Assembly: GCA_002842435.1 (NCBI GenBank)
Contig: PHCX01000001.1
Span: 1 to 64,000 of the forward strand
Reading direction: 5' to 3'
DNA length: 64,000 nucleotides
Origin: Betaproteobacteria bacterium HGW-Betaproteobacteria-1
GTDB taxonomy: Bacteria > Pseudomonadota > Gammaproteobacteria > Burkholderiales > Methylophilaceae
Shown: one piece after another, positions 47,296 through 54,647 of the stretch
Position numbering within the stretch: position 1 is the stretch's first letter
Layout: each line of letters starts with the position of its first letter
Made by a program: the position numbers and the translations under genes
The notes under the pieces: generated by a model
Told to the model about the DNA's origin: nothing
Database searches by the model: none
The model's input: the letters and a program-made list of their open reading frames with translations, nothing else

Positions 47296-47338
47296 TCCTT
47301 GATTACCCAAACAAAACCCGATATCACTTAACACTGAT

Positions 47339-47365
47339 GTAAGGTTCTCTGCTTCCATACGATTA
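47339..47365 (+). promoter_or_regulatory. Possible ECF-type promoter before the small-peptide operon
   Basis: GTAAGG, 15 bases and CGATTA resemble the GTAAC...CG(T/A) shape of ECF sigma promoters and lie 57 bp before the 44-residue peptide gene. ECF sigma operons often regulate themselves. The match is short and speculative. Confidence 0.25.
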
Positions 47366-47421
47366 ACTGACAGGCTTTGATAAAAAGCCATCAACAATCA
47401 TTAATATTCTGGAGGTTAGTT

Positions 47422-47556
47422 ATGTCGATTATGTGCAAAATGGGCAGCAAGTGCAGCGCCAGCAAGGGGATGTGCATCCACGAGAAAATGATGATGGCCG
47501 TTGCCATGATCATGGCACTCGCCGCGATCGGACACTGGGGTCTGGGCTGGTTCTGA
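47422..47556 (+). CDS. 44-residue Cys/Met-rich membrane peptide
   Basis: A short gene with a very good ribosome site (GGAGG six bases before the ATG). It encodes MSIMCKMGSKCSASKGMCIH, then EKMMMAVAMIMALAAIGHWG and LGWF. The first 20 residues have three Cys, four Met and a His in a Lys-rich setting, a possible soft-metal binding patch; the remainder is one hydrophobic helix. It stands 24 bp before an ECF sigma gene and is probably co-transcribed with it, an anti-sigma and a DoxX gene. I do not recognise the family. Metal binding is inference from composition only. Confidence 0.7.
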   Translation: MSIMCKMGSKCSASKGMCIHEKMMMAVAMIMALAAIGHWGLGWF

Positions 47557-47580
47557 TCCTGACAGAACTTCAGCTACATC

Positions 47581-48150
47581 ATGAAAACGGCTCCATTACT
47601 GAACGCGGAAGGTCTGCTTGACGAGCATGGCGATTACCTCTTCCGTTTCGCCTTGCTTCGGCTCAAGGACTCTGCCCTGGCAGAGGACATGGTGCAAGAG
47701 ACCTTGATTGCCGCTTTTGCAGCAAGGGATCGCTATACCTCAAGTGCTTCGGTACGCACCTGGCTTACGGCAATCATGAAGAACAAGATGATTGATTACT
47801 GGCGGCGCATGGGACGGGAAAATCTGGCCTCCGACCTGATGGAAAGCACCGGCCAGAATGGAAGCGTTGATGACTTCTTTGATCAGGCCGGGCGCTGGGT
47901 CGACAAACCCAACCCTTATCCGGATCCTGATCAGGCACTCGAAAACAAACAGTTCTGGGGTGTTTTCGAGTCCTGCGTTTCCAGACTGAAACCGCAGCAA
48001 GCAGAAGTATTCATCGCCATTGAGGTTCACGGTATGGAAAACGAGGAAGTCAGCAAAAGCCTTGCCTTGAGTCCGGGCAATATCTGGGTATTGATGCATC
48101 GCGCTCGCGTCGCCTTGAGCAAGTGCCTGGAAATTCACTGGTCGAGATAG
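47581..48150 (+). CDS. ECF-family RNA polymerase sigma factor
   Basis: A 189-residue sigma-70 family protein of the extracytoplasmic type. Region 2 reads LFRFALLRLKDSALAEDMVQ with ETLIAAF and VRTWLTAIMKNKMIDYWRR; region 4 reads RLKPQQAEVFIAIEVHGMEN with SPGNIWVLMHRARVALSKCL. No region 3 or 1.1 is present. The zinc-type anti-sigma gene follows 11 bp later. Target genes are unknown; the operon itself is the likeliest. Confidence 0.93.
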   Translation: MKTAPLLNAEGLLDEHGDYLFRFALLRLKDSALAEDMVQETLIAAFAARDRYTSSASVRTWLTAIMKNKMIDYWRRMGRENLASDLMESTGQNGSVDDFFDQAGRWVDKPNPYPDPDQALENKQFWGVFESCVSRLKPQQAEVFIAIEVHGMENEEVSKSLALSPGNIWVLMHRARVALSKCLEIHWSR

Positions 48151-48161
48151 GAGTGGAAATC

Positions 48162-48449
48162 ATGCTCAACTGCAGACAGGCAAGCGAACTCATGTCCCAG
48201 GGAATGGACGGTAAATTGTCCTTGAAAGACAGGTGGGCTCTCAAAGTACATTTGATGATGTGCCGGGGATGCGCCAGTTTCATGCACCAAATCCGTTTTC
48301 TGCGTAAGGCAGGAAACCGCTGGCAACAGCACAGTCCGTCAAACCCCACTCGATTATCCAACGAAGCAAAAAAACGGATAAACGATGCTTTGGAGGATTT
48401 CAAAAACGGCAGGCGACTGCACAACGATGACAAAGGAACATCATCATGA
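48162..48449 (+). CDS. Zinc-finger anti-sigma factor
   Basis: A 95-residue cytoplasmic protein with the ZAS/zf-HC2 motif H-x3-C-x2-C in [17 protein letters not shown], plus an upstream Cys in [17 protein letters not shown]. No membrane helix, so it is a soluble inhibitor of the neighbouring sigma factor, perhaps released by oxidation or metal as in RsrA/ChrR-type proteins. The start at 48162 follows AGGAG; a longer frame overlapping the sigma gene is less likely. Its stop overlaps the DoxX start (ATGA). Confidence 0.85.
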
Positions 48450-48964
48450 CCAGACTTTTTGCTCTCTATGGGAAGACCATCAACTGGCTTGGCCTTGGCG
48501 CCTTGATCATACCGCCACTCTTGCTGAGGCTGATACTGGCTTACGAATATGGTGAAGCGGGTTATATGAAATTCTCCGGGGAAAACTGGTTTGCCCACCT
48601 GAGCTTCCCTTTCCCTTTCAATGTTCTGCCGGTTGAACTCAGCTGGCAAATGGCAACCTGGTTCGAATTGATCGGTGCAGCCGCATTGGTTTTAGGACTG
48701 GCAACACGCTTCTTCAGCTTGTCCCTGATCATTCTGACCATCGTGGCGATTGCGTCCGTGCACTGGCCGGAGCAATGGTCCAGCCTGGGTGAGCTATGGA
48801 AAGGTTACACGGTTCTGGATGATGGTTATGGCAACTACAAACTGCCCCTGTTATTCATGCTCATGTTTCTTCCGCTGTTATTTGGCGGAGCAGGCAAGGC
48901 CAGCCTGGATTACCTGATTGCCCGACGCAGCAGCGCCAACAAGTCGCCAACTTCGGCTATATAG
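48446..48964 (+). CDS. DoxX family membrane protein
   Basis: A 172-residue protein with four membrane segments and the DoxX pattern: [20 protein letters not shown] early, then a segment around [20 protein letters not shown], and two later helices. DoxX proteins occur in redox, metal-stress and respiratory clusters, often behind ECF sigma genes; the biochemical role is unclear. Its start overlaps the anti-sigma stop, and its last 8 bp overlap the convergent AraC gene. Confidence 0.9.
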
Positions 48965-49877
48965 CGCTGCGGCGACAAGCGCCAGGACTGACGCCCAGAC
49001 ATTTCTTGAAAGCCTTGCCGAACGCGGCTTCGGATTGATAACCGGCTGATTCAGCAATCGCCTGCATGGAAAGATTGCTGGTTTCCAGCATCTTTCGCGC
49101 CTTTTGCATACGCCACATCGTCAGATAGTGCATGGGTGTCTGTCCGGCCAAGGCATGGAAACGTTGAGAGAAAGCCGTGCGGGACATCCCGGCCTCCTGC
49201 GCCAGTGTATCGACTGACCACGAATTTTCCGGCCGCTGATGCATGGCGTTCATCGCCAGCCCAAGTTTTGGATCGGCAATCGCGCCAAGAATCCCGGGGG
49301 GCGTTACTGACTGTTCGATATAGGCCCGCATGATCTGGGTAAACAGCACCTCCACCAGCCTGTTCACAACTGCCGCCGTGCCCGGCCGCGCATGACGAAC
49401 CTCATGGCTGATGAAATTGATCGTGGTCTGCAACCAATTGAGCTCCGTGGCATCCGTTCCCTTCAGATGAATAAATGCCGGCAATGCGTCCAGTAGTGGT
49501 GAGCGCGTCTTCCGGTCGAACTCGAAATAACCGCACAACACATTGGCCGGGCTGCCGCCGCCACCATACCGCACCGGCCCGTAGTTCTCGATAGTCCGGT
49601 CGCCAATCAATTCTGCCGGCGGGATCGCCTTGCTGTCCGGGGCATCCAGAAACAAGTGGGCATGGCCGTGCGGGAACACCACCAGATCCCCCGCATTCAG
49701 GCAGACCGGTTCAGCCTCACCCAGCAGCTTGATCCAGCAGGTGCCACGCGTCACCACATGAAATTCCGCCACCGGCGTTTCACCGATATCCATGCCCCAT
49801 GGCGCCGTCAGCTCGCAGCGGAAATAGATGCCGCCGCCGAGATGCAAGGATCCAAGAATGTCTGTTAGTGCATCCAT
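48957..49877 (-). CDS. AraC family transcriptional regulator with cupin domain
   Basis: A 306-residue regulator: N-terminal cupin_6-like sensor (about 1-190; [32 protein letters not shown]) and C-terminal AraC double helix-turn-helix ([20 protein letters not shown], then [19 protein letters not shown] and [20 protein letters not shown]). Divergent to the AhpD-like gene at 50025, with 147 bp between, so it probably controls that run. Ligand unknown. Confidence 0.92.
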
Positions 49878-50024
49878 ATATTTAATCCAGTACTAATTGA
49901 CATAAATAATGCACTAATCATCATTTTTAATCCACATCAATCTATCTATCATTCAATCCATGCCGATATGCAGTTTTCATCAAACGCATATCCAGCTGTT
50001 CATCCAATCACCAAGGAGAAAATT

Positions 50025-50636
50025 ATGTCGTCCAACTACCAACTTACCCTCGCACCACGTACGGTGCATGACGCCCATCCGCGCGCGAGGATTAACCTGG
50101 AAAGCGCAAAGAACGCATTGGGGTTCATCCCCAATATGTACGCCAATATGGCCAATGCGCCGATTCTGCTGGACAGCTACCTTTACACCTACGGGCTGTT
50201 CCGTCATGAATCCGGGTTCACCCCGGTGGAGCAGGAAGTCGTGTTCCTGACCATCAGCCGCGAGAACGGCTGCCATTACTGCGTCGCCGCACACAGTTTC
50301 GTGGCGGATGCCATGTCCGGGGTGCCGACCGAGGTGACCGATGCCATTCGCGATGGGCGAGAAGTTCCCGACGCGAAACTGCAGGCGTTGAGTGCTTATA
50401 CCAAGGTCGTCCTCAACTCACGCGGCCATCCCTGCCAGGAATCCACCGCAGCCTTCCTGGCAGCCGGGTATACCGAACAGCACATTCTCAACATCGTGCA
50501 GGCGATTGCCGTGAAGGTCATGAGCAACTACGCGAACCATTTGTTCGATACGCCGCTGGATGAGGTATTCACAGGGCGAGCCTGGCAGCCGGCATGTCAG
50601 GCTGCCGCCTGCAGTACCTCTGCGTGCGCGGCTTGA
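50025..50636 (+). CDS. AhpD/carboxymuconolactone decarboxylase-like protein with Cys-rich tail
   Basis: A 203-residue protein of the AhpD-like superfamily. The peroxidase-type motif is complete: ENGCHYCVAAHSFVADAM, with CxxC plus His. FIPNMYANMANAPILLDSYL is the usual N-terminal block. The last 16 residues (QPACQAAACSTSACAA) add three cysteines not typical of the family. The start at 50025 follows AAGGAGA; the 19-codon upstream extension is not supported. First gene of a run divergent to the AraC regulator. Confidence 0.88.
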   Translation: MSSNYQLTLAPRTVHDAHPRARINLESAKNALGFIPNMYANMANAPILLDSYLYTYGLFRHESGFTPVEQEVVFLTISRENGCHYCVAAHSFVADAMSGVPTEVTDAIRDGREVPDAKLQALSAYTKVVLNSRGHPCQESTAAFLAAGYTEQHILNIVQAIAVKVMSNYANHLFDTPLDEVFTGRAWQPACQAAACSTSACAA

Positions 50637-50711: not shown

Positions 50712-51257
50712 ATGACGATCTCAACCCCATTCGACGTCATGCAACACACCAGGGCGCCATTGCGCCTTGAATTGACAGCCAGATTCCATGTTTCGCCGCA
50801 AAAGCTGTTCGATACCGTTTCAGACCACCATGCCGTGGCCAACTGGGTGCCGCTCATGCGCGCCGTCGCCATGGAGCACAAGAGTAACGGACAATGCGAT
50901 GTCGGCTCCATCCGGCACTGCTCACTGCACGGCATGGGCGGAATCGACGAAACCATTCTCTGGTGGAATCCGCCACACGGCTATGCCTTCCGGGTGGAAG
51001 CCAAATCTAAAATGATGATGCCAACCCGGGACCATGTCTCCGTGATGCTGATCGTACCCACTGCCGATGGTGGTTGTGAATTGACCTGGCGCCACCATTT
51101 CAACTGGCGCGGATTCTTCATGCGTCACATGACTGCGGTCATGTTTCCCATGATGATGCGGAGCGCGCTCGCCAATATCCGCAAGGAACTCGGTGAAGAT
51201 TGTGCCGCCAATCACGCATGTGCCGCTTCAACGTGCCAGAAAGCCGGTTGTAAGTAG
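50712..51257 (+). CDS. SRPBCC family protein with Cys-rich tail
   Basis: A 181-residue START/Bet v1-like (SRPBCC) protein: ARFHVSPQKLFDTVSDHHAV and NWVPLMRAV at the start, then a lipid- or ligand-pocket fold with CELTWRHHFNWRGFFMRHM. Such proteins bind hydrophobic ligands; which one is unknown. The tail (EDCAANHACAASTCQKAGCK) has four cysteines, like the tail of the protein before it. Start follows AAGGAAACC. An AhpD-like gene follows after 121 bp. Confidence 0.85.
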   Translation: MTISTPFDVMQHTRAPLRLELTARFHVSPQKLFDTVSDHHAVANWVPLMRAVAMEHKSNGQCDVGSIRHCSLHGMGGIDETILWWNPPHGYAFRVEAKSKMMMPTRDHVSVMLIVPTADGGCELTWRHHFNWRGFFMRHMTAVMFPMMMRSALANIRKELGEDCAANHACAASTCQKAGCK

Positions 51258-51378
51258 TCCGCATCACAGCCGTTTAATTGCCATTAACCGATGGAATCAG
51301 GGCGATGCACCTTGAAGAAGTTCAAGCACCGGCTGACTGGACTGGCTATTTCCTTACAAGAGCTCAAAGAGATAAAAA

Positions 51379-51900
51379 ATGACACAAGCTACAAGCACCT
51401 TCAACCCTGACCCGACATTGCCGATTCTGCAGGACATACACCACGCCTTCGGCATGGTGCCCAATCTGTTCCGCGCCTACGCAAAACATCCAGCGCTACT
51501 GGAAGCGAACTGGAACAAGGTCAAGGCGGTTCTTCTCGGCGGCGGCATCCGCCGCCATACAAAAGAGATCATGGCGCTGCTGGTATCCATAGACAATGGC
51601 TGCACCTATTGCGTCGCGGCGCATTCAGCGATACTACGAAGCCTGGGCATGGAAAAATCTCACATCGATGCCTTGTTACTGGGACTCTACCCATCCGAGC
51701 TTACCGCTTCCGATGTCGAACTGATCAAATTCGCCCGCAGGGTTAACCTGCACTGGCGTGATATATCCAACGATGATTTGGAGTCCATGAAACAAATGGG
51801 CATCGCCGAAACGGACATCATCGAGACGATAGGAATCGTTGAATTGTTTTCCGGTTTCAACCGCTTTACCCGCACGATGCAGGTCGAAGTGGATTTCTGA
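51379..51900 (+). CDS. AhpD/carboxymuconolactone decarboxylase-like protein
   Basis: A 173-residue AhpD-like protein with DNGCTYCVAAHSAILRSLG (CxxC and His) and the N-terminal FGMVPNLFRAYAKHPALLEA. Second such protein within 2 kb but without a Cys tail. The catalytic cysteines suggest a peroxide- or thiol-linked role; substrate not shown. An NrtS-like gene follows 3 bp later. Confidence 0.88.
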   Translation: MTQATSTFNPDPTLPILQDIHHAFGMVPNLFRAYAKHPALLEANWNKVKAVLLGGGIRRHTKEIMALLVSIDNGCTYCVAAHSAILRSLGMEKSHIDALLLGLYPSELTASDVELIKFARRVNLHWRDISNDDLESMKQMGIAETDIIETIGIVELFSGFNRFTRTMQVEVDF

Positions 51901-51903
51901 TCA

Positions 51904-52110
51904 ATGAAACCCGGCCACCGGCAAATAGTCTCGAATGCACTCCGCATTTCAGCCGTGGTCGGGGCGCTGCTGAACATCATCAATCAGGGCGGGGATATGC
52001 TGGAAGGCCGCGTTTCATGGCTGCATTTTGTGCTCAACTTCCTGCTCCCCTTCGCTGTAGCCACATACAGTGGGTTTACCGCACATCACGATCAACCTGA
52101 CGACAGGTGA
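51904..52110 (+). CDS. NrtS-like small membrane protein
   Basis: A 68-residue protein with two hydrophobic stretches (RISAVVGALLNIINQGGDML and LHFVLNFLLPFAVATYSGFT), matching in size and pattern the NrtS family of small nitrate/nitrite transport-related proteins. No nitrate gene is near, so the transport role is uncertain. It lies 3 bp after the AhpD-like gene and touches the HD-GYP gene. Confidence 0.65.
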   Translation: MKPGHRQIVSNALRISAVVGALLNIINQGGDMLEGRVSWLHFVLNFLLPFAVATYSGFTAHHDQPDDR

Positions 52111-52115
52111 CTACC

Positions 52116-52964
52116 ATGAACCACGCCGAACATTTACTGAAAAGCCTCTTCGTCATGGCCTCTATGGTAGAGGCGAGAGATCCCTATACGGGTGGTCACT
52201 TGTGGCGCGTCTCCCAGTTCAGCCGCATCCTGGCCAAGGATGGTGGCTTGCCCGCAAATGAAGTATCCAGAATCGCGCTAGGCGGTTTTCTGCATGATCT
52301 AGGCAAAATCAGCGTACCTGACGCAATCCTCAACAAACCGGACAAACTGACTGCCGAAGAATATGAGGTCATCAAGACACACCCCGAGGTCGGTAGCCGC
52401 CTACTGGCCGACCACCCACTGGCCGAGCTGGCGCGTAGCGCCATCCTCTCACATCATGAAACGCCTGACGGACGCGGTTACCCGCATGGCCTGTCCGGTC
52501 CTGCCATTAGCGTGGATGCCAGCATCGTCGGCATTTGTGACGCCTTTGACGCCATGACCAGCACTCGCCCATATCGCAAGGGCATGCCGACCGGAAAGGC
52601 GCTAGGCATTATCCAGGAGAACCTGGGCAGGCAATTCCATGCAGCATGGGGGCAACGGTTCGTCCGGCTGGGGGAAAGTGGAAAATTGGATCACATTATT
52701 GGTCACAGCGAGCAGGGCATCCCATTGCAGACATGTCCCATGTGCGGACCAACCATCGTCATTAACCGCCGCCATTTGCATGGCGACCATGTGTATTGCC
52801 GGTCTTGCGGGGGCGAAGCCTCCGTGGACAGGAGCGGTGGCCGACTCTCGATCGCACCAACAGGTAGACGCGGCAGCATGCGCGATCTTGAACCCGAGAT
52901 TGACAGCAACCTGCTGGATGAACTGGTCAGGGGAAGCAGCCGCCATCTGGCTCTAGCGGTGTGA
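52116..52964 (+). CDS. HD-GYP domain phosphodiesterase with C-terminal zinc ribbon
   Basis: A 282-residue protein with a complete HD-GYP domain: MVEARDPYTGGHLWRVSQFS, FLHDLGKISVPDAILNKP, LSHHETPDGRGYPHGLSG and CDAFDAMTSTRPYRKG. HD-GYP proteins hydrolyse cyclic-di-GMP. A C-terminal addition has CPMC and CRSC pairs 25 residues apart, a zinc ribbon, and a polar tail. No receiver domain. The ATG at 52116 is preferred to a GTG at 52107 that overlaps the previous stop. Convergent with the next gene. Confidence 0.9.
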   Translation: MNHAEHLLKSLFVMASMVEARDPYTGGHLWRVSQFSRILAKDGGLPANEVSRIALGGFLHDLGKISVPDAILNKPDKLTAEEYEVIKTHPEVGSRLLADHPLAELARSAILSHHETPDGRGYPHGLSGPAISVDASIVGICDAFDAMTSTRPYRKGMPTGKALGIIQENLGRQFHAAWGQRFVRLGESGKLDHIIGHSEQGIPLQTCPMCGPTIVINRRHLHGDHVYCRSCGGEASVDRSGGRLSIAPTGRRGSMRDLEPEIDSNLLDELVRGSSRHLALAV

Positions 52965-52968
52965 GAAC

Positions 52969-53694
52969 TTATCTGGCCATAGATACTGGCTCCAGCGCCT
53001 GCACAATGGATTTTATCTGCTGTTCAACGCTGATTGGAGCATAGCCGGTCAACTCCAGCCCCCTATCCTCAAAGACGTCGTTTTCCGGATTTCTGTCTAT
53101 CCATTCCCCTACGACCTGATCACGTGTCTTTAATAGATCTTCAATTTGTGGCCGGAACAAGGTCAGCATGGATGATATCCAGATGTTCACCGGCCATGAT
53201 GGCCAGGCGTGGTCGATATGAAAACGATCCAGCATCCTGATGACATCATGCGCCGGGTACCAGGTCTCGCCGGTCACCCAGCGATTGGTGGCAAACAACC
53301 CCACCGGGAAACCGTAGACATCCATCGAGATACCGATCAGGTGGGATAGCGCATCCTGGCCTCGCGGCCAGGGTTCATCTCCCACGTAGTCCAGTGGCTG
53401 CACCTTCTCGGGCATTCCGGACTGTCGCAGAAAGGTATGAAAATGACCATGCTCACCAGCCTCGACACGGTGGGCATGGTAGTAGTACTGACTGTGAGTC
53501 TCCATGTCGAACACGTCATCCCGGGGATAATGCTCAAATTCGATGAAATCGCCCTGCTCACGCAGCACTTCACTGACGATATTCATCCCGGCCTTGCCCA
53601 GAACCCGATAACACTCCAGCACTCGCGCACCGGCATCCGCCATGCGCTCAAGCTGGGTACGCGGCAGCATTGAGAAATCAATGGTCTCCATCAT
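52969..53694 (-). CDS. Conserved uncharacterised protein (possibly DUF6969)
   Basis: A 241-residue soluble protein, with a possible 17-residue longer form from 53745. It has a striking run of His, Tyr and acidic residues: EFEHYPRDDVFDMETHSQYY, YHAHRVEAGEHGHFHTFLR, and later NRWVTGETWYPAHDVIRMLD. The spaced HYPRDD, HSQYYYHAH and EHGHFH motifs look like a metal site, which is inference. I believe it belongs to a family recently numbered DUF6969 but cannot verify this. It follows the repeat cytochrome gene on the same strand. Confidence 0.75.
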   Translation of the reverse strand: MMETIDFSMLPRTQLERMADAGARVLECYRVLGKAGMNIVSEVLREQGDFIEFEHYPRDDVFDMETHSQYYYHAHRVEAGEHGHFHTFLRQSGMPEKVQPLDYVGDEPWPRGQDALSHLIGISMDVYGFPVGLFATNRWVTGETWYPAHDVIRMLDRFHIDHAWPSWPVNIWISSMLTLFRPQIEDLLKTRDQVVGEWIDRNPENDVFEDRGLELTGYAPISVEQQIKSIVQALEPVSMAR

Positions 53695-53776
53695 GGCCCC
53701 AAAATTATGGGCGATGAACCCAACGCGCAGCCCCACCGCCCACAAAACATCATTATTACTTCTTTAAATCACCAAT

Positions 53777-54538
53777 CTAGTGAGCGGCACAAGGATTCTT
53801 TGCCTTGCACGGATTCTTTGCCTTGCACGGGTTCTTTGCCTTGCACGGGTTCTTGGCTGCGCAGGGGTTTTTACCGGCACAAGGGTTCGCGACAGGCGCA
53901 CAGGCGCCACAACCCTTTGCCTTTGCCGAGCAGGGGTTCCCGGCAGCACAGGGATTGGCTGTTGCCTTGCCCGGCTTGAAATTCTTCTGCACCTCTGCCG
54001 TATAAGCCGTCAACGCCGCAAGCTCCCGGGAATTCCAGGGCAAGGGCTGTGCCTGCATCGGCTTGACCATGCAGAACTGCACCATCTCTTCCAGAGTGAT
54101 CGATTGCAGGCCGGCGTTATCGACCGCCATTTGTACGCGATGCGGATAGGGCTTGGCAAAATCAGGCTGGAACATCGTTCCGCCGGTATGGCAGGTCGCG
54201 CAGGAAATGGTTTTGGAACCACTCAACCTGGGATTGTTCCAGAGGCGCTCGCCTTCCTTGACCAGCGTCGGCTTGTCGCCCTGATAAGGCTTGGTGCCCT
54301 TGGGGCGAAGAACCAGCTTGGGATCGATACGATCACCCGCTGCACACGGGTTCTTGGCACCGCACGGGTTCTTCGCGGCACAAGGATTCTTGGCCGCACA
54401 TGGGCTGCACGGGTTCTGCCGCGACCTTGGTGTACATGGGGCGCAGCGCGCGGCAAGGGCGGGAACCGGCATGGCGATCACAGCGCTCAATAGCCCGGTA
54501 AGTACGGCTGCTCTCAATTGTTTGGCTTGCGTGTTCAT
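53777..54538 (-). CDS. Monohaem cytochrome c with Asn-Pro-Cys repeats
   Basis: A 253-residue secreted protein. A signal peptide ends near PALAA. The haem-binding motif is C113-A-T-C-H117, with Met157 or Met161 as possible sixth ligand, in a class I cytochrome c-like domain (EGERLWNNPRLSG ... LPWNSRELAALTAYT). The haem domain is flanked by tandem hexapeptides of type NPC(A/K)AK: four NPC units before it (residues 42-67) and eight after it (195-253), giving 12 NPC units. The 18-bp DNA repeats for the three KAK units are nearly identical, so the tract may vary in length. The repeats are likely metal- or thiol-active; that is inference. RBS is GGGAG. Confidence 0.85.
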   Translation of the reverse strand: MNTQAKQLRAAVLTGLLSAVIAMPVPALAARCAPCTPRSRQNPCSPCAAKNPCAAKNPCGAKNPCAAGDRIDPKLVLRPKGTKPYQGDKPTLVKEGERLWNNPRLSGSKTISCATCHTGGTMFQPDFAKPYPHRVQMAVDNAGLQSITLEEMVQFCMVKPMQAQPLPWNSRELAALTAYTAEVQKNFKPGKATANPCAAGNPCSAKAKGCGACAPVANPCAGKNPCAAKNPCKAKNPCKAKNPCKAKNPCAAH

Positions 54539-54596: not shown

Positions 54597-54647
54597 CACT
54601 ACTGAGTTAAACGGGATGGCATCGGAATACTTACAATTCGCTGTTAT

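Follow-up and report, generated by a model that had tools for sequence, protein, structure and literature searches.

Sigma-F of Caulobacter is metal-responsive, binds the promoter GTAACC-N16-CGAA and controls a DUF2282-DUF692-DUF2063-DoxX gene set as well as YedY, which is of the MsrP type (Kohler 2012, PMC3511200). In Haemophilus influenzae, RpoE2/HrsE answers HOCl and controls a DoxX/DUF2063 operon together with methionine sulfoxide reductases (Nasreen 2021, PMC7907618). HvfX, the family of the DoxX protein considered below, is still termed uncharacterised (PMC13419390).

We analysed a stretch of 64,000 nucleotides from Betaproteobacteria bacterium HGW-Betaproteobacteria-1 (the window). A preliminary description had singled out a 44-codon gene with a strong ribosome site, encoding three Cys, several Met and a His before one membrane helix. 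The ORF was confirmed at 47422-47556, with a GGAGG ribosome site 6 bases 5′ of its ATG. The genes described as following it, an ECF sigma factor after a gap of 24 bp, an H-x3-C-x2-C anti-sigma factor and a DoxX protein, were recovered by TIGR02943, zf-HC2/NF052368 and NF050144, respectively. All four genes are on the plus strand, and the anti-sigma and DoxX genes share four bases. The features of the region are as follows.

47338..47366, plus strand: predicted ECF promoter of the peptide operon, TGTAAGG-N15-CGATTAA, 84 nt before the peptide start
47422..47556, plus strand: 44-aa Cys/Met/His peptide with one predicted membrane helix; the ORF reads MSIMCKMGSKCSASKGMCIHEKMMMAVAMIMALAAIGHWGLGWF
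47581..48150, plus strand: ECF sigma factor of the TIGR02943 family (185.1 bits, cut-off 162.2)
48162..48449, plus strand: zinc-type anti-sigma factor, H-x3-C-x2-C (PF13490, zf-HC2, 35.9 bits; NF052368, 71.1 bits; both above cut-off)
48446..48964, plus strand: DoxX protein of the HvfX family (PF07681, 57.5 bits; NF050144, 132.3 bits, cut-off 80)
48957..49877, minus strand: AraC regulator with a Cupin_6 domain (nearest NCBIfam RclR, below cut-off, 148.8 of 400)
49968..50636, plus strand: CMD/AhpD-domain protein (PF02627, 26 bits, cut-off 23)
51249..51277, plus strand: second predicted ECF promoter (relaxed motif), 130 nt upstream of the CMD gene at 51379
51379..51900, plus strand: CMD peroxidase-related protein (TIGR01926, 92.3 bits, cut-off 81.8)
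52107..52964, plus strand: HD-domain (HD_5) protein; similar genes stand near Gallionella-type relatives
52969..53745, minus strand: DUF6969 protein (PF22308, 282.5 bits), downstream of the NPC-repeat cytochrome
53777..54538, minus strand: secreted-looking NPCAAKNPC-repeat protein with a SoxA/TsdA cytochrome c domain (PF21342, 40.7 bits, cut-off 27)
54607..54635, minus strand: third predicted ECF promoter (relaxed motif), 97 nt before the NPC-repeat cytochrome gene at 54538

AraC genes were also found near related peptides at other loci. In the cytochrome (53777-54538, minus strand), NPCAAKNPC-type repeats flank the SoxA/TsdA domain at both ends, and these repeat words were absent from the literature covered by our text search. 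The absence of MNIO and DUF2063 genes, remarked on in the preliminary description, is correct for the operon, which contains neither. It does not extend to the genome, whose one MNIO gene lies, with DUF2063, on contig 3, away from the peptide operon. There (L027 5449-8405, minus strand) a second TIGR02943 sigma factor, an anti-sigma factor, a GKCG-type precursor, the MNIO and the DUF2063 protein are encoded consecutively. No HvfX gene was seen beside this row, the two HvfX genes of the genome being located elsewhere.

The peptide has the motif M-S/A-x-M-C...C...G-M-C-x-H-E-K-M-M, followed by a single hydrophobic helix. It had no significant match in Pfam, NCBIfam or PDB (the sole PDB match was at E 5.8), and neither DUF2282 nor any other curated precursor signature of Pfam or NCBIfam was detected on it. 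Matches to a dictyostelium-repeat (E 0.046) and a seadornavirus entry (E 0.29) were taken as chance. A search of its own genome gave one match and a plasmid search none, and the words of its motif were absent from the literature covered by the text search. Not recognised at the outset, the peptide thus proved equally foreign to the libraries searched, and within these libraries and this literature the family to which we assign it is unnamed. The AF2 model comprised one helix at residues 19-40 (mean pLDDT 72), with pLDDT below 65 over residues 1-20, where the Cys part was of low confidence. Inspection by eye likewise placed the helix at about 19-40, on the C-terminal side, and saw no signal-peptide-like start. 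The tail preceding the helix was net positive in 176 of 222 family members and neutral or negative in 46, and the C-terminal end was positive in 71 of the 222, a charge pattern that makes it likely that the N-terminus faces the cytoplasm.

Queried with the single peptide sequence, the search returned six proteins at E <= 10. A profile of nine sequences raised this to 208 proteins at E <= 10, and a profile of 33 sequences to 694 relatives at E <= 0.001, mostly of about 37-45 residues. No Pfam domain was present among the best 120 of the 208 or the best 120 of the 694 matches listed. A DNA pattern scan of genome contigs for G-x-C-x-H-E-K-x-M yielded 59 loci, 58 of them with a start codon at the expected distance. 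Both upstream cysteines occurred in all 58 readable peptides (58/58), a requirement that the pattern did not contain. The E-K of the motif was in part a product of the pattern: the profile search also recovered L088, in which HEM replaces HEK. L064 lacks a start and one cysteine, and L073 is truncated by the end of the available stretch.

By record, the hosts are Nitrospira, Nitrosospira, Gallionella, Sideroxydans, Methylotenera, Methylobacter, NC10, Zixibacteria, Chloroflexi, Elusimicrobia, Methanoperedens and DPANN archaea. MAGs make up most of these genomes, so a binning error may affect individual cases; support for the archaeal set comes from members in six of 34 genomes of one family. 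The distribution was patchy. Among 149 near relatives (the genome of the window included) there were three clear matches besides the window (G005, G042, G125). In 369 genomes of the class (again including that of the window) we found one more clear match, G280, and a weak one containing a stop, G425. Among 120 genomes surrounding a Gallionella genome, 12 matched, two with decayed-looking copies (L109, L110); together with L064, these are decayed-looking peptide genes in Gallionella-type genomes.

Fifty pairs of locus peptides with more than 75% DNA identity, mutually non-independent, differed 222, 187 and 574 times at codon positions 1, 2 and 3. In the same pairs, synonymous and non-synonymous codons numbered 205 and 95 in the Cys/His part, and 165 and 288 in the helix. 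The Cys/His tail, and not the helix, is the most conserved part of the peptide. Since relatives occur across phyla and codon positions are biased, the ORF is beyond chance, and these comparisons indicate a conserved family in bacteria and archaea. The search for homologues proposed at the outset, in which a lack of conservation in related genomes was to count against the peptide, did not refute it.

The strict promoter pattern occurred once in the 2.5-Mb genome. The relaxed motif had five matches, compared with two for a reversed control. Four of the five stand 84-130 nt before genes; the fifth (C3:444875) is inside the second sigma gene and was left out. Three of the predicted promoters fall inside a 7.3-kb part of the window, and the remaining site, on contig 3, lies 106 nt before msrP, behind which follow msrQ and the second HvfX gene. 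The coordinates of this msrP-msrQ-HvfX group are L097 1559-3180 and G000:C3:173308-173727. In a sister genome, the site of the peptide operon was identical at 13 of 13 box positions and 5 of 16 spacer positions, the CMD site at all 29 bases, and the site of the NPC-repeat cytochrome at 12 of 13 box and 5 of 16 spacer positions with the same -97 distance.

A site of the form TGTAA-N15..19-CG[AT][ACT]YAA stands 75-107 nt upstream of the peptide of the window, and the same holds for 24 of 56 related loci; the upstream regions of the other 32 of 56 lacked the strict motif. A slightly stricter motif gave 52 sites in the 436 kb of the 59 loci versus none in ten shuffles. The gene nearest to these sites was the peptide in 24 cases, a thioredoxin in seven and a bufferin in four, and seven of the 52, inside sigma coding sequence, were set aside. 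The region-4 codons of the sigma genes in L027, L032, L036, L052, L057, L061, L078 and L079 spell TGTAA...CGAC-AA, the very motif that the sigma factor would recognise, which is probably a coding coincidence.

Either of the two TIGR02943 sigma factors of the genome is a candidate reader of the motif. As in sigma-F/RpoE2-like regulons, a TIGR02943 ECF sigma adjoins an anti-sigma, and, by pattern only, a GTAA...CGA-type promoter stands before the sigma operon and the DoxX and Msr genes. Judged by these motif matches, the peptide operon appears to be one member of a small ECF regulon of known kind. The suggestion of a new copper- or thiol-stress module held in part: the peptide is new to the libraries, but the operon appears as a unit of such a regulon and not as a stand-alone module.

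We suggest that the peptide is a membrane-anchored soft-metal or thiol ligand switched on by an ECF envelope-stress sigma factor, a reading to which we assign a probability of about 0.45. The peptide likely helps cells to withstand toxic metals or oxidants, given that genes for methionine repair and for a cysteine-rich cytochrome lie behind the same putative stress-promoter motif. Three conserved cysteines and a C-x-H-E beside a helix would be compatible with soft-metal binding or with thiol redox chemistry. In the proposed mechanism, metals or oxidants would attack the zinc-type anti-sigma and so free the sigma factor, one of the two TIGR02943 proteins, which would read the TGTAA...CGA motif and switch on the peptide along with the sigma and anti-sigma genes of its operon. 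With its N-terminus presumably toward the cytoplasm, the peptide may coordinate an ion such as Cu(I) or Hg(II) through its cysteines and histidine, or these may cycle between oxidised and re-reduced states. It would hold the ion or thiol at the inner membrane face for partners encoded nearby, the candidates being HvfX/DoxX, thioredoxin-DsbD or, in some archaea, MerA-DsrE. Copper is not singled out: a copper-only reading is not favoured over oxidants or mercury, as the linked genes point equally to oxidants (MsrPQ, CMD and the sub-cut-off RclR-like AraC) and, in some other genomes, to mercury (MerA; L035, L066).

The neighbourhoods of related peptides were compared with profiles built from the loci themselves, counting matches within 1.5 kb of the peptide at the 59 loci. 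Sigma genes were found at 26 loci, anti-sigma at 21, MNIO at 16, bufferin-1 and thioredoxin at 15 each, NPC-type at 13 (a low-complexity profile and the least certain label), DUF2063 at 13, DsbD-like at 11, DsrE at seven, MerA-like at four and DoxX at one. A sigma, anti-sigma or bufferin-type gene was present at 36 of the 59, and at 45 when thioredoxin, DsbD-like, MerA and DsrE were added, which left 14 without any profiled partner. At 21 control loci, those of weak peptide matches (L005-L025, E 0.004 to 1), the counts were sigma 1, anti-sigma 1, thioredoxin 2 and DsbD-like 2. In scans with independent libraries, TIGR02943 matched 22 of 27 sigma factors at 1e-40 (window included), DUF2282 all 16 bufferin labels (16/16), and DsbD_TM 12 of 44 proteins. 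These 44 took in 15 of the 22 thioredoxin labels and 13 DsbD-like labels, 12 of the 13 being matched.

Four layouts were seen: peptide-bufferin-MNIO-DUF2063-DoxX; peptide-NPC-type-sigma-anti-sigma-AraC with a divergent thioredoxin-DsbD pair; peptide-sigma-anti-sigma, in the window and in L044, L047, L062, L072 and L084; and, in Methanoperedens, the peptide accompanied by DsrE and MerA (L035; MerA 590.9 bits, cut-off 454). L035 and L066 each have a MerA above cut-off close to the peptide, and L068 a MerA-like match below it. The copies in L042 and L069 are solitary: each keeps its own motif, and the stretch examined contains no sigma gene. The likeness to bufferin clusters first noted for the operon is real, as relatives of the peptide sit in DUF2282-MNIO-DUF2063-DoxX clusters and beside ECF sigma genes. 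Two further small genes were seen: in L004 (1646-1780, minus strand) another tiny Cys-rich single-helix peptide (MSRTCATEEGEKCGSCGG...) is encoded directly before a family member in a bufferin cluster, and in L035 (2419-2631, minus strand) a small Cys-rich protein, with what we take to be a SEC-C-like end, directly before the archaeal peptide.

Alternatively, the peptide might belong to a membrane complex (DoxX/HvfX or a DsbD-like thiol transporter, for example), either as a subunit or as a partner in its assembly, and would then have no metal site itself. Small membrane subunits typically have a single short helix, as the peptide does; DoxX, thioredoxin and DsbD-like genes also recur nearby, the latter with DsbD_TM as above. 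Nevertheless, no single membrane partner is common to all contexts and conservation is highest in the Cys/His tail rather than the helix, and we consider this reading unlikely. A role as regulator of the sigma/anti-sigma pair, in which metal binding to the cysteines of the peptide, or their oxidation, makes it act on the soluble anti-sigma as a membrane sensor or tether, would account for the peptide-sigma-anti-sigma order at the six loci listed and for the sigma labels at 26 of the 59. This too seems unlikely to us: to our knowledge archaea have no such sigma factors, yet they carry the peptide, and L042 and L069 keep the motif away from any sigma gene within the stretch examined. These archaeal members and stand-alone copies weaken a regulator-only reading and favour an effector role over one limited to regulating the sigma factor.

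It is improbable that the peptide, like a bufferin, serves as a RiPP precursor for MNIO modification. The cysteines of the peptide are conserved, MNIO labels lie within 1.5 kb at 16 of the 59 loci, and the genome of the window encodes one MNIO. However, among 50 peptide-bearing genomes (completeness unstated; loci L033, L064, L073, L080 and L082-L086 omitted) 24 showed no MNIO, which makes an MNIO substrate unlikely, and the 26 that showed one do not exceed the class background of 222 in 369 genomes. A separate DUF2282 precursor is present in 16 loci, in L059 a GKCG-type precursor of its own is encoded ahead of the peptide and MNIO, and the start of the peptide does not resemble a signal peptide by eye. 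The expected genome-level enrichment with MNIO did not appear, and only physical linkage was considered; the MNIO reading was not favoured. A chance or decaying ORF, or a mere upstream leader of the sigma gene, might be suspected from its tiny, unannotated state and from the decayed look of L064, L109 and L110, but is highly improbable given the amino-acid conservation across phyla, the codon-position bias and the many copies with no sigma gene following.

Returning to the membrane-anchored ligand, we propose, more tentatively, that the family may be a new class of tiny peptides in bacteria and archaea that carries soft metals or redox thiols at the inner membrane face and is plugged into the detoxification systems of its hosts (bufferins, DoxX, thioredoxin-DsbD, mercuric reductase). 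If true, metal and oxidant defence in bacteria and archaea alike would include a membrane ligand that costs little to make. Peptides this short are easily missed by gene finders and family libraries, and the relatives reveal a common component, as yet unstudied, that accompanies bufferin, DoxX and DsbD-like genes and, at some loci, MerA. The promoter motif offers a direct route to testing the regulon.

Among known systems, Caulobacter sigma-F has a promoter close to the motif in the window. The Caulobacter anti-sigma NrsF is a six-helix membrane protein, unlike the small zinc-type anti-sigma of the window, and the available sections of the sigma-F account name no tiny peptide (PMC3511200). Haemophilus influenzae RpoE2/HrsE is likewise an ECF sigma with a small cytoplasmic anti-sigma, but its gene layout differs from that of the window and the available part of that account names no tiny peptide either (PMC7907618). 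Bufferin/oxazolin (MNIO) clusters share DoxX and ECF sigma genes with the window and have relatives of the peptide inside them (Antoine 2025, PMC12452194). Unlike bufferins, the peptide has no tested precursor signature and no evident signal peptide, and the available sections of the bufferin/MNIO account name no such peptide (PMC12452194). Mer loci are approached in L035 and L066, where MerA is near the peptide, and not in the window. The regulon is of a known kind and the peptide family is conserved, present in two domains and linked to several detoxification systems; the predicted regulon of the window resembles the published Caulobacter sigma-F and Haemophilus RpoE2 regulons.
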